DNA of 44,012 nucleotides from Kandleria vitulina DSM 20405 (lineage in GTDB: Bacteria > Bacillota_I > Bacilli_A > Erysipelotrichales > Coprobacillaceae): positions 1 to 44,012 of the forward strand of contig NZ_JNKN01000017.1 in assembly GCF_000702065.1 (NCBI RefSeq), in the 5' to 3' direction. Position 1 is the first letter of the stretch. The number at the start of each line of letters is the position of its first letter. Of this stretch, positions 18,767 to 36,314 are shown piece by piece. Position numbers and translations under genes: made by a program. Below the pieces are notes generated by a model. That model was not told where the DNA came from, did no database searches, and saw only the letters and a list, made by a program, of their open reading frames with translations.

Positions 18767-20179
18767 CTATTTAAGCATGGATAAAGCTTTACTGTAGATG
18801 GGATCATAGCTCTTTGTACCAACTGCGTAAACATAAGCACTTAACAAATGATAATAGCTTTCCTGATCATAGTTTCCAGACTCTTTAAGATGTTCTTTTT
18901 TCTGGAATGCTTTTAAAGCATTTTGCGCATCCTTAGAAAAATAGCCATCCGTACGTCCTGGCTTATAGCCCAATGCATCTAACATGACTTCCATTGTTTT
19001 AATATAATCATTCAGCTGATCAAAATGATATGTAGCTGGTACTTTTTCTAGCTGTAGTTTGGCAAGTGGTGCATCACTTATTACTACATTTGGGACAATA
19101 CCCACCTTATTGATGGACGTTCCATCCGGTGTCAGCCATTTGGCATAAGTGTATTTTAAGACACCACCGTTAGCTAATGGCATTTCTACTTGTACAGTCC
19201 CTTTACCATATGTCTTCTCACCAACAATTGTGTAATTATTATTTTTCTTTAAAGATGAAGCCATAATCTCACTGGCAGATGCACTCATATTATTAACAAG
19301 AATTAATCCCTGTTCAAACTGATAATGATCATCTGTCGCATCTTTCACCTTAGTTACTTTTCCATTTTTTGTTTTTGTCATATAAAGTACAGTGTCTTTT
19401 TTATTTAATAAAGCAAGACATTCTTCTGCCGCATCGACATATCCTCCCCCATTATCTCGTAAATCAATAATGAGTGATTTCACGTTATTCTTCTTAAAAG
19501 AGGCAAGAGCCTTCTCAAACAATGAACTTGTAGCTGTACCAAACGTATTGATATCCACATATCCACAACGATGTCCATTGATATCCTTAATTCCATAATT
19601 AAGACTTGAATCCAATGATGAACGTTCAACATGAAGCACCATTCTCTTGCCGCCACGCAGTACTGTTAAAGAAACAGCTGTTCCCTTTTCACCACGGATA
19701 GCCTTGCCAATTTCTGAAGATGATTTATTATTCATTGAAATGCCAGCCACCTCAATAATAAGATCACCAGGCTGAACTTTTCCTTTTAAAGCTGGCGTAT
19801 CAGGATAGACTGTAGTCACAATCGCTCCTTCTTTAGTTGTTAAATAATCAATACCAATACCATCATAGTCACCATCGACAGTATCCTGAAAAGAATCAAA
19901 TTCTGATTTTGTCATATAGCTTGTATGAGGATCACCTGCACCAAGAACTAATCCTTTAGATAGACGTTCAAGTAAAGATGTATTTTCATTGGTTGTATCA
20001 TAAAACTGATTATTCATTGCATTATAAAGCTGAAGCAGTGTGCGATTATTCAGTGAAGACTTTTCTGTTTCTTTATGAAAAAGAACGTATCCACCTCCGA
20101 TGCCAAGAGCAAAACATAGAATACCAACAAGAAGGACAAATAGTGGCTTTATTCTTCTTTTTTTGCTTGCCATATACAC
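18767..20179 (-). CDS. S41-family carboxy-terminal processing protease with PDZ and peptidoglycan-binding domains
   Basis: This membrane-anchored serine protease (about 470 residues) belongs to the CtpA/CtpB type. It has one N-terminal TM helix (about 12-34), a PDZ domain (about 100-185), the S41 core with the catalytic serine in the SASASEI motif (about residue 301) and the lysine 25 residues later in YGKGTVQ, and a C-terminal PG_binding_1-like domain (about 385-445, with [13 protein letters not shown]). Such enzymes trim or activate envelope and sporulation-type proteins outside the membrane. The GTG at 20179 is preferred because GAGGTG lies six bases upstream; the ATG at 20173 is also possible, whereas a GTG at 20188 lies inside the ribosome binding site. 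It is first in the operon. Confidence 0.9.
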
Positions 20180-20278
20180 AATAATCACCTCGTCTACTCA
20201 TTTTATCATAATTGACTTAAATTTTATACAGTGTTGCATAGAAATGAATTTATCCCCTTTATCTTATTTTCACCTTTT

Positions 20279-20299
20279 GTAAAAAAGTCACTTTTTTAC
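20279..20299. repeat. 21-bp near-perfect palindrome in the divergent intergenic region
   Basis: GTAAAAAAGT and ACTTTTTTAC are perfect inverted arms around a single C. It lies between the protease operon and the lysozyme-like gene, about 50 bases upstream of the -35 of the latter. It may be an operator; the low GC and lack of spacer make it a poor terminator. Confidence 0.4.
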
Positions 20300-20326
20300 T
20301 GTATATAAGCAATAAATTTTAATTTC

Positions 20327-20348
20327 TTAAGAAAATCTTAAGAAACAG
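20327..20348 (+). repeat. two 11-bp TTAAGAA repeats upstream of the -35
   Basis: Units TTAAGAAAATC and TTAAGAAACAG are perfectly tandem and end two bases before the -35 hexamer. The period and position suit an OmpR-family activator site. Confidence 0.7.
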
Positions 20349-20350
20349 TG

Positions 20351-20378
20351 TTGACTTCTCCCTCATTTATGGTATAGT
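20351..20378 (+). promoter_or_regulatory. promoter of the lysozyme-like gene
   Basis: TTGACT (20351-20356) and TATAGT (20373-20378) are spaced 16 bases apart. Transcription would start near 20385, giving a leader of about 65 bases. Confidence 0.75.
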
Positions 20379-20396
20379 AACAAATGTATTCAAAAG

Positions 20397-20440
20397 TTAA
20401 GAAATTCTTAAGAATTACGTAAGAATTTCTTAAGGAAAGA
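20397..20440 (+). repeat. four tandem 11-bp TTAAGAA repeats in the predicted leader
   Basis: Units at 20397, 20408, 20419 and 20430 read TTAAGAAATTC, TTAAGAATTAC, GTAAGAATTTC and TTAAGGAAAGA. The last unit runs into the ribosome binding site. The same repeat family appears at 34358-34445 and 36293-36314. Confidence 0.75.
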
Positions 20441-20448
20441 GGATAAAT

Positions 20449-20964
20449 ATGAATAAATTAATTAAGAAATTAACAATGTTCGCATTAGCTTTTATTATAA
20501 TGGGTGGCGCATTTGCCATTAGTGCTGAAAACAGTGAAGCATTCGCTGCTACAAATAAAGCAAGAGTTTACGCTGAGTTAAAGGCATCAGGCTACAGCAA
20601 GGCTACAGCTGCTGGAATCATGGCTAACATCAAGCATGAATCTAACTACAACCCAAACGCTGGACGTGGCGCTTATGGTTTAATTCAGTGGACTGGTTCA
20701 AGAAAGAGCGCATTAAAGAGATATGCTAAATCTAAGAAATTAAGTTACAAGTCAGTTAAAGCTCAGATCGGTTATATGAACAAAGAGCTTAAGAGTGGAT
20801 ATAAAGGACTTTACAAACATCTTAAGACAGTAAAGAACAATAAATCTGGTGCTTATAAAGCAGCTCATAAGTTCTGTTATGATTTTGAAAGACCTGCCAA
20901 TAAATCAAGTCGTTCAAAGAAACGTGGCAATACTGCTAAGAAGATTTATTCAAAGCTAGCATAA
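20449..20964 (+). CDS. secreted phage-tail-lysozyme-like protein
   Basis: This 171-residue exported protein has a Sec signal peptide (about 1-34: basic start, hydrophobic core, AFA ending). The mature part resembles the phage tail lysozyme domain: YAELKASGYSKATAAGIMAN, then IKHESNYNPNA with the likely catalytic Glu, and AYGLIQWTG. The rest is very lysine-rich and contains no separate wall-binding module. It probably cleaves peptidoglycan, either for wall turnover or as an anti-competitor lysin. It stands alone with its own promoter, repeat array and terminator, and no phage genes are nearby. AAAGAGG precedes the ATG. Confidence 0.8.
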   Translation: MNKLIKKLTMFALAFIIMGGAFAISAENSEAFAATNKARVYAELKASGYSKATAAGIMANIKHESNYNPNAGRGAYGLIQWTGSRKSALKRYAKSKKLSYKSVKAQIGYMNKELKSGYKGLYKHLKTVKNNKSGAYKAAHKFCYDFERPANKSSRSKKRGNTAKKIYSKLA

Positions 20965-34330: not shown

Positions 34331-34359
34331 TTTACATATCGGAATAAATTGTGTATATT
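34331..34359 (+). promoter_or_regulatory. candidate promoter of the 3D-like secreted protein gene
   Basis: TTTACA (34331-34336) and TATATT (34354-34359) are spaced 17 bases apart. If used, the whole repeat array lies in the leader. An alternative -10, TATTCT at 34430-34435 inside the one divergent repeat unit, would make the array an activator site instead. Confidence 0.55.
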
Positions 34360-34445
34360 AAGAAAAACTTAAGAATTACTTAAGAAGTAGTTAAGAAATA
34401 TGTAAGAACTGCTTAAGAATTATGAAAGGTATTCTTAAGAATTAA
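34358..34445 (+). repeat. eight tandem 11-bp TTAAGAA repeats
   Basis: Units start at 34358, 34369, 34380, 34391, 34402, 34413, 34424 and 34435, with no gaps. Six read TTAAGAANNNN, one GTAAGAACTGC, and one is divergent (GAAAGGTATTC). Unit 34369 is identical to unit 20408 (TTAAGAATTAC). The array ends right before the AAAGGAG site of the following gene. Confidence 0.85.
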
Positions 34446-34463: not shown

Positions 34464-35087
34464 ATGAAGAAATTATTTAGTAAGTCGCTTTTAAAAATTG
34501 TTATGATGATGACATTGGCACTAGGATTAAGTGCACTTTCAATAGATCAGGCAGCTGCCAAAACAAGTAATCAGGAAATCGCTCTTCCTATTACTCATAC
34601 CTTAGATGCTGCTACAAAAACAGCTTCTCGTAAGGTTAAGATTGCTCATAAGGCAATGCAGATGGCCAAATATAAGAAATATACTATTAAAAATGGTGTT
34701 AAGTTCTATACTTACTTTAAAGCAGAAAATGTATCAGACATTGAAAATAGTGAAACATATAAGGCTGTTCAGTCTGTAAGAACTACTAGTTCAAGATTAA
34801 CTAAATCAGCTGGTGCTATTACTGGTCCTAATGGTAAGGAAACATATTACAACTTAAATATGAACGGTGTTGTTCGTATTATGAGAAACCATGGTAATAC
34901 TGATAAGTATTGGGTAAGAAGTGATGGTGTTAAGATGCTTGGTAACTATGTTATGATTGCAGCTGATCAAGCAAGAAGACCACTTGGTTCTATCTATGAA
35001 ACATCTTTAGGATTAGGTATTGTATGTGATACAGGTTCATTTGTATCAAGCAATCATAATCAGACAGATATTGCGACAAATTGGTAA
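34464..35087 (+). CDS. secreted protein with 3D-like (double-psi barrel) domain
   Basis: This 207-residue exported protein has a signal peptide (about 1-32, ending QAAA-KT). The C-terminal half reads MLGNYVMIAADQARRPLGS, ETSLGLGIVCDTGSF and QTDIATNW, with aspartates spaced like the '3D' domain of RlpA/MltA-type barrels and Rpf2-like proteins. Such domains cut or bind peptidoglycan glycans; activity here is inference. The N-terminal half is a helical stretch of unknown role. It has AAAGGAG before the ATG, is monocistronic, and shares its upstream 11-bp repeats with the lysozyme-like gene at 20.4 kb, suggesting joint control of wall-acting secreted proteins. Confidence 0.7.
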   Translation: MKKLFSKSLLKIVMMMTLALGLSALSIDQAAAKTSNQEIALPITHTLDAATKTASRKVKIAHKAMQMAKYKKYTIKNGVKFYTYFKAENVSDIENSETYKAVQSVRTTSSRLTKSAGAITGPNGKETYYNLNMNGVVRIMRNHGNTDKYWVRSDGVKMLGNYVMIAADQARRPLGSIYETSLGLGIVCDTGSFVSSNHNQTDIATNW

Positions 35088-36272: not shown

Positions 36273-36295
36273 TAATTTGCCTTTTTGGCAAATTA
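36273..36295. promoter_or_regulatory. 9-bp inverted repeat over the -35 (possible operator)
   Basis: TAATTTGCC-TTTTT-GGCAAATTA is a perfect dyad. It covers the -35 (TTGCCT) of the XRE regulator gene, so it may be an autoregulatory operator. Confidence 0.5.
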
Positions 36296-36304
36296 AGATA
36301 TACT
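36277..36304 (+). promoter_or_regulatory. promoter of the XRE regulator gene
   Basis: TTGCCT (36277-36282) and TATACT (36299-36304) are spaced 16 bases apart. It would give a very short leader, with transcription starting at about the ribosome binding site. Confidence 0.5.
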
Positions 36305-36314
36305 TAAGAGTAAG
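36293..36314 (+). repeat. two 11-bp TTAAG repeats
   Basis: TTAAGATATAC and TTAAGAGTAAG are tandem, overlap the -10 and abut the GGAG site. They look like a minimal version of the arrays at 20.4 and 34.4 kb, though two short AT-rich units could be chance. Confidence 0.4.

Follow-up and report, generated by a model that had tools for sequence, protein, structure and literature searches.

What is the function of the 11-bp TTAAGAA repeats that stand on both sides of the promoter of a lysozyme-like gene in Kandleria vitulina DSM 20405, and which protein reads them? The gene lies in a 44,012-nt stretch of this genome (contig NZ_JNKN01000017.1 of assembly GCF_000702065.1, positions 1 to 44,012 of the forward strand), referred to below as the window. 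A preliminary description had taken the repeats for sites of an OmpR/PhoB-family regulator controlling an undescribed cell-wall hydrolase regulon, related in their core to the CiaR repeats of streptococci and with leader units that might act in RNA. Our analysis indicates that they are probably the tandem sites of a VanR-type member of the OmpR/PhoB family, most likely the regulator on contig C19, which would most likely activate hydrolase genes. The features concerned are as follows.

18767 to 20188, minus strand: peptidase gene of S41/PDZ type, divergent from the lysozyme gene across a common intergenic region (domain recognized by eye, not by profile search)
20327 to 20348, plus strand: upstream pair TTAAGAAAATC TTAAGAAACAG, predicted activator site adjoining the -35 (from sequence; same position in 29 of 50 family promoters)
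20351 to 20378, plus strand: predicted sigma-A promoter TTGACT-16-TATAGT (read from the sequence)
20397 to 20440, plus strand: leader array of four units, one every 11 bp, reaching into the ribosome-binding site; a second predicted site (parallels in genomes G019 and G020)
20449 to 20964, plus strand: gene for a secreted 171-aa Phage_lysozyme2 (PF18013) protein (132.8 bits), the putative regulated gene
34358 to 34441, plus strand: second array, in which seven units (TTAAGAA or GTAAGAA) keep an exact 11-bp phase (window scan)
34464 to 35087, plus strand: gene that follows the second array; its secreted product (207 aa) matches no Pfam family

Within each of the two blocks at 20327-20440 the units follow one another at steps of exactly 11 bp. 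TTAAGAA starts at 20327 and 20338 in the upstream block. Two bases separate the end of the second 11-mer, at 20348, from TTGACT (20351-20356), which is followed after a 16-bp spacer by TATAGT (20373-20378). The leader units start at 20397, 20408, 20419 (GTAAGAA) and 20430 (TTAAGGA), the last overlapping the ribosome-binding site of the ATG at 20449; the protein begins with a signal-like segment ahead of the PF18013 domain found by profile search. The layout is thus as the preliminary description had it, with two units abutting the -35 and four running through the leader. Because the unit is nearly the palindrome TTCTTAAGAA, its orientation has no unique definition. Two or more direct repeats at a spacing of about 10-11 bp are what OmpR/PhoB-type regulators recognize, and they are present here. 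Four 11-bp-spaced pairs (at least 6 of 7 matching) occur within 20281-20448, a number reached by none of 2000 dinucleotide shuffles (shuffle mean 0.02), and 22 one-mismatch pairs occur in the whole window, where 7.4 were expected and the shuffle maximum was 13. These counts confirm that the arrays are real and not due to chance. The divergent peptidase gene is possibly co-regulated with the lysozyme gene; the neighbourhood of the two is kept in both G019 and G020. In the second array the units start at 34358, 34369, 34380, 34391, 34402, 34413 and 34435, leaving the slot at 34424 empty, and no clear promoter was found between this array and the 207-aa gene. Elsewhere in the window, a BceR-like response regulator is encoded at 1894-2556 on the minus strand; downstream of it come a short kinase of the intramembrane type and a permease-like gene.

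Across the K. vitulina genome, pattern searches, from which our list of targets is drawn, returned the exact pair TTAAGA-N5-TTAAGA 16 times (10 + 6) against three (1 + 2) for the reversed-pattern control, so that the random scatter by which the first proposal could have failed is not borne out. A three-unit pattern with three mismatches was too loose (265 matches against 195 in the control) and was discarded. The exact pairs lie mostly 5′ of secreted NlpC/P60 and lysozyme-like genes: C2:92010, C14:16432 and C14:17361 precede NlpC/P60 proteins, C9:14694 a Phage_lysozyme2-SH3 protein and C14:29668 a secreted multidomain protein. Sites also precede the two window genes, and the lysozyme and NlpC targets fall on contigs C2, C9, C14 and C15. 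The sites at C2:167721, C11:14528 (inside a coding region) and C15:36293 look like the chance share; the last of these (window 36293-36309) is a lone TTAAGA pair directly 5′ of a small helix-turn-helix-like gene and may be accidental.

We then scanned 244 genomes of the order with the specific pattern TTAAGAA-N3-CTTAAG. In 23 genomes of the same family, which protein resemblance suggests is Coprobacillaceae, representing 13 genera, it matched 104 times against 20 for the control, whereas the remaining 20 genomes of the family gave 3 matches against 10, and in the second family of the order matches were about as rare as controls. A protein scan of named relatives returned only two distant MAG loci, both without the motif. 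Many of the genes 3′ of the fetched sites encode Ig-like plus NlpC/P60 proteins, Phage_lysozyme2 proteins or C39 peptidases, and others in the relatives encode DUF218 proteins, a VanZ protein and small lipoproteins; a wall gene does not follow every fetched site. The arrays therefore recur before secreted wall-cutting enzymes in 13 genera of one family. No PF18013 gene was present in nine motif-poor genomes, which thus lack this target family as well. We examined 50 target promoters; in 29 of them a -35-like hexamer starts 4-8 bp (mode 6) after the end of the pair's last unit, and the -10 follows at 16-19 bp. Many of these 29 combine a poor -35 (TGGACT, TAGACA) with a perfect TATAAT, as expected of an activated promoter. 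Taken together, the arrays, their promoter position and their recurrence argue that a hydrolase regulon of the kind suggested exists in the 23 genomes; searches of the open-access literature turned up no earlier account of one. The window is low-complexity, AT-rich sequence (35% GC), in which repeats might accumulate by chance or by replication slippage. That explanation is so improbable as to be negligible, since it is opposed by the shuffles, by the genome-wide enrichment and by the same pre--35 position across genera; conservation of position and of target class across genera, which the chance reading forbids, is what was found.

The bipartite layout also recurs. In G019 (L098, L104) and G020 (L107, L108), lysozyme genes carry one set of units before TTGACA and another in the leader, and the occurrence of this two-sided layout in two genera makes the leader units a recurrent feature of lysozyme promoters rather than a property of the whole regulon. 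We considered whether these units act as RNA, with a hairpin beside the ribosome-binding site controlling translation. The leader can form a hairpin with a 14-bp stem (-14.2 kcal/mol, z -3.5); however, a unit so close to a palindrome lets any tandem array fold, the equivalent leaders of three G019 and G020 genes do no clearly better than shuffles (z -1.6, -1.3 and +0.7), and the longest array of the window has a folding z of -1.0. The hairpin is thus without a match in the related leaders, and translational control is a very improbable account of the leader units.

To which regulator, then, do the sites belong? The genome has nine OmpR-type regulator matches, eight of them above the Pfam cut-off. 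We looked for orthologues of the C13, C7, C6 and C19 regulators in the whole family; for the other regulators the comparison covered four to nine genomes. The C19 regulator (G000:C19:3632-4336) is VanR-like, a VanS-like kinase gene comes after its own gene, and its orthologues (64-90% identity) occur in exactly the 23 motif genomes, identity being at most 51% in the other 20. Several other candidates fail this comparison: the PhoB-like C7 regulator is missing in G029, which has hydrolase sites; the C3 regulator is missing in motif-bearing G011; the BceR-like C15 regulator is weak in motif-bearing G007 and G010; and neither C51 nor C27 corresponds to any of the regulators listed for four motif genomes. 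A tree of C6 orthologues places the 23 motif genomes on one side of one branch (support only 75/51), and for this reason we do not take the Fisher value of 3e-10 for the co-occurrence as a probability. Since the profile reflects one evolutionary event, co-occurrence itself leaves the nearly universal C6 and C37 regulators in contention, and the C19 VanR-like protein is, from sequence and co-occurrence, the likely regulator of the hydrolase sites.

The link to CiaR fares worse. The CiaR consensus NTTAAG-N5-TTTAAG (PMC3091779) shares the TTAAG core and the 11-bp period of the unit, and a CiaR-like pair is encoded on C13 (regulator at C13:19676). Close orthologues of its regulator are confined to g1 and g11, the two genera in which bipartite lysozyme promoters were seen and where it could thus act on the leader units; however, the 11 other motif-bearing genera have none. 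In addition, the distance between CiaR repeats and the -10 is 10 bp (PMC3091779), whereas the repeats described here precede an intact -35. CiaR-type regulation is accordingly quite unlikely. Of the preliminary description, the OmpR/PhoB-type repeats, their placement at the -35, the hydrolase regulon and the bipartite layout stand, while the CiaR link does not and the RNA role is improbable; with CiaR set aside, a VanR-type regulator is the reading that sequence and co-occurrence favour.

Several observations bear on this assignment. The curated profile nearest to the C19 regulator is VanR-ABDEGLN (279.4 bits, below the cut-off of 350), and that nearest to its partner kinase is VanS (277.5 bits, below the cut-off of 400), so the pair is VanRS-like by profile and not certified VanRS. 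Among the regulators of the genome, C19 is the closest to VanR-A, -M, -C and -N (45-48%), although its lead over C7 for VanR-A is narrow (45 against 44%); in a tree, the C19 clade falls near, not inside, the known VanR types, part of the grouping being weakly supported. The published VanR box is (T/C)CGTANGAAA(T/A)T, arranged as direct repeats 5′ of the -35 (PMC4405338). The family box consensus is TTCTTAAGAAATT, and its consensus unit TCTTAAGAAATT differs from the published box by one mismatch, a defined base at position 3. In the vanH promoter of E. faecium, TTTAGGAAAA, CTTAGGAAAT and ATTAAGAAAC lie at 0, 33 and 55 bp, all multiples of 11; CTTAGGAAAT and TTTAGGAAAA are thus readings that units of that promoter themselves show. 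The upstream pair thus occupies the position of a VanR box and shares the 11-bp phase of the enterococcal vanA and vanG boxes. The leader units are additional to it and, as the published VanR sites are 5′ of the -35, are without precedent among VanR sites.

A link between the box and a van-type gene comes from g19. In both genomes of this genus (G032 L346, G033 L349) the gene for a VanG-type D-Ala-D-Ser ligase (559 and 562 bits against an NCBIfam cut-off of 495) has a pair about 110 bp ahead of it; however, a divergent gene shares the intergenic region, and the site might belong to either one. The ligase gene is chromosomal, with no obvious van cluster within the fetched stretch. In the motif-less genera, 8 of 9 VanR-A/VanR-C-class regulator genes have upstream 11-bp KTAAGAA pairs, against 0/43 for C6/C37, 3/31 for C7, 2/8 for C3 and 1/23 for C19, which suggests that these VanR-class genes are autoregulated; VanR-A/VanR-C-class genes of motif-less genera with (T/G)TAAGAA 11-bp pairs on their 5′ side are found at L316, L318-L320, L247, L249 and L243. 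Autoregulation of the C19 operon itself was rejected, as its gene has no box upstream and a single orthologue has a pair. The missing box counts against the C19 assignment, although VanRG is likewise without autoregulation (PMC4405338).

The same sites and regulon might instead be bound by C6 (C6:46260-46940; MtrA/PhoB/YycF-like and a possible WalR analogue) or by C37, which lies beside a glmM-like gene. Autolysins are the classic target class of WalR and MtrA, C6 is present at 70-87% identity in 42 of the 43 family genomes and C37 at 71-83% in all nine examined, and, as no regulator of this genome reaches the YycF cut-off (best score 205 against 340 bits), the post of wall-hydrolase regulator is vacant for either of them. 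By target class the hydrolase regulon works like the WalR (YycF) autolysin regulon of Bacillota, with OmpR-family direct repeats before NlpC/P60 and other wall hydrolases. However, the recognition helix of C6 is unchanged in genera without the motif, none of the 43 C6 or C37 promoters carries the 11-bp pair that VanR-class promoters have, and the B. subtilis WalR motif TGTWAH-N5-TGTWAH (PMC9210968) differs from the unit. We therefore regard binding by C6 or C37 as doubtful. A walJ-like gene with rlmH is located at G000:C2:166442-167194 (L361), with no walRK or other regulator pair beside it.

A further look-alike is the Pho box of PhoB/PhoP, which also consists of 11-bp TTAAGA-type direct repeats; it has a G before and a T after TTAAGA, whereas the hydrolase box has C and A. 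Pho-type boxes GTTAAGAT-N3-GTTAAGA with an 11-bp period occur at L075:1501-1517 (G019) and L061:1501-1517 (G004), in the gap that separates phoU from the PhoB-like gene and in that separating a pstS-like from a pstC-like gene. A C7-type regulator beside phoU and such a box is what would be expected of a phosphate regulator.

Returning to the VanR-type regulator, we propose that the genes for secreted peptidoglycan hydrolases (Phage_lysozyme2, NlpC/P60) are most likely switched on by a dimer bound at the pair adjoining the -35, the targets in relatives probably extending to C39 peptidases, the VanZ protein, DUF218 proteins and the VanG-type D-Ala-D-Ser ligase. VanS is activated by wall-active drugs and by lysozyme (PMC8541618), and from these data we infer that the VanS-like kinase, by analogy with VanRS, would sense cell-envelope (wall) stress. 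The leader units may bind extra regulator across the transcript start and hinder promoter clearance or elongation, which would cap or block lysozyme transcription at high regulator levels. VanRS is the switch for vancomycin-resistance genes. The system described here differs in that its main targets are peptidoglycan hydrolases rather than resistance genes, in its extra leader units, in having no van cluster beside the C19 regulator and in scoring below the VanR and VanS profile cut-offs. More tentatively, we suggest that in this family a VanRS-like system might have assumed the hydrolase housekeeping performed by WalRK in other Bacillota, its dual sites first activating and then capping lysozyme expression; vancomycin-resistance regulation would be a specialized offshoot of such circuits.

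The VanR box and WalR-like autolysin control are each known; a VanR-type box on peptidoglycan hydrolase genes appears to be new. In the same genomes two 11-bp boxes of similar appearance, VanR-type CTTAAGAA and Pho-type GTTAAGAT, can be told apart, which offers a useful test case for OmpR-family specificity. If the proposal is true, it would supply a wall-hydrolase regulator for a genome in which none passes the WalR/YycF cut-off, wall-stress sensing would be linked to wall remodelling through a relative of VanR, and wall antibiotics are predicted to alter hydrolase output in members of the family. Control of autolysins by a close relative of VanRS in a commensal-type family would then represent a concrete ancestor-like VanRS circuit.
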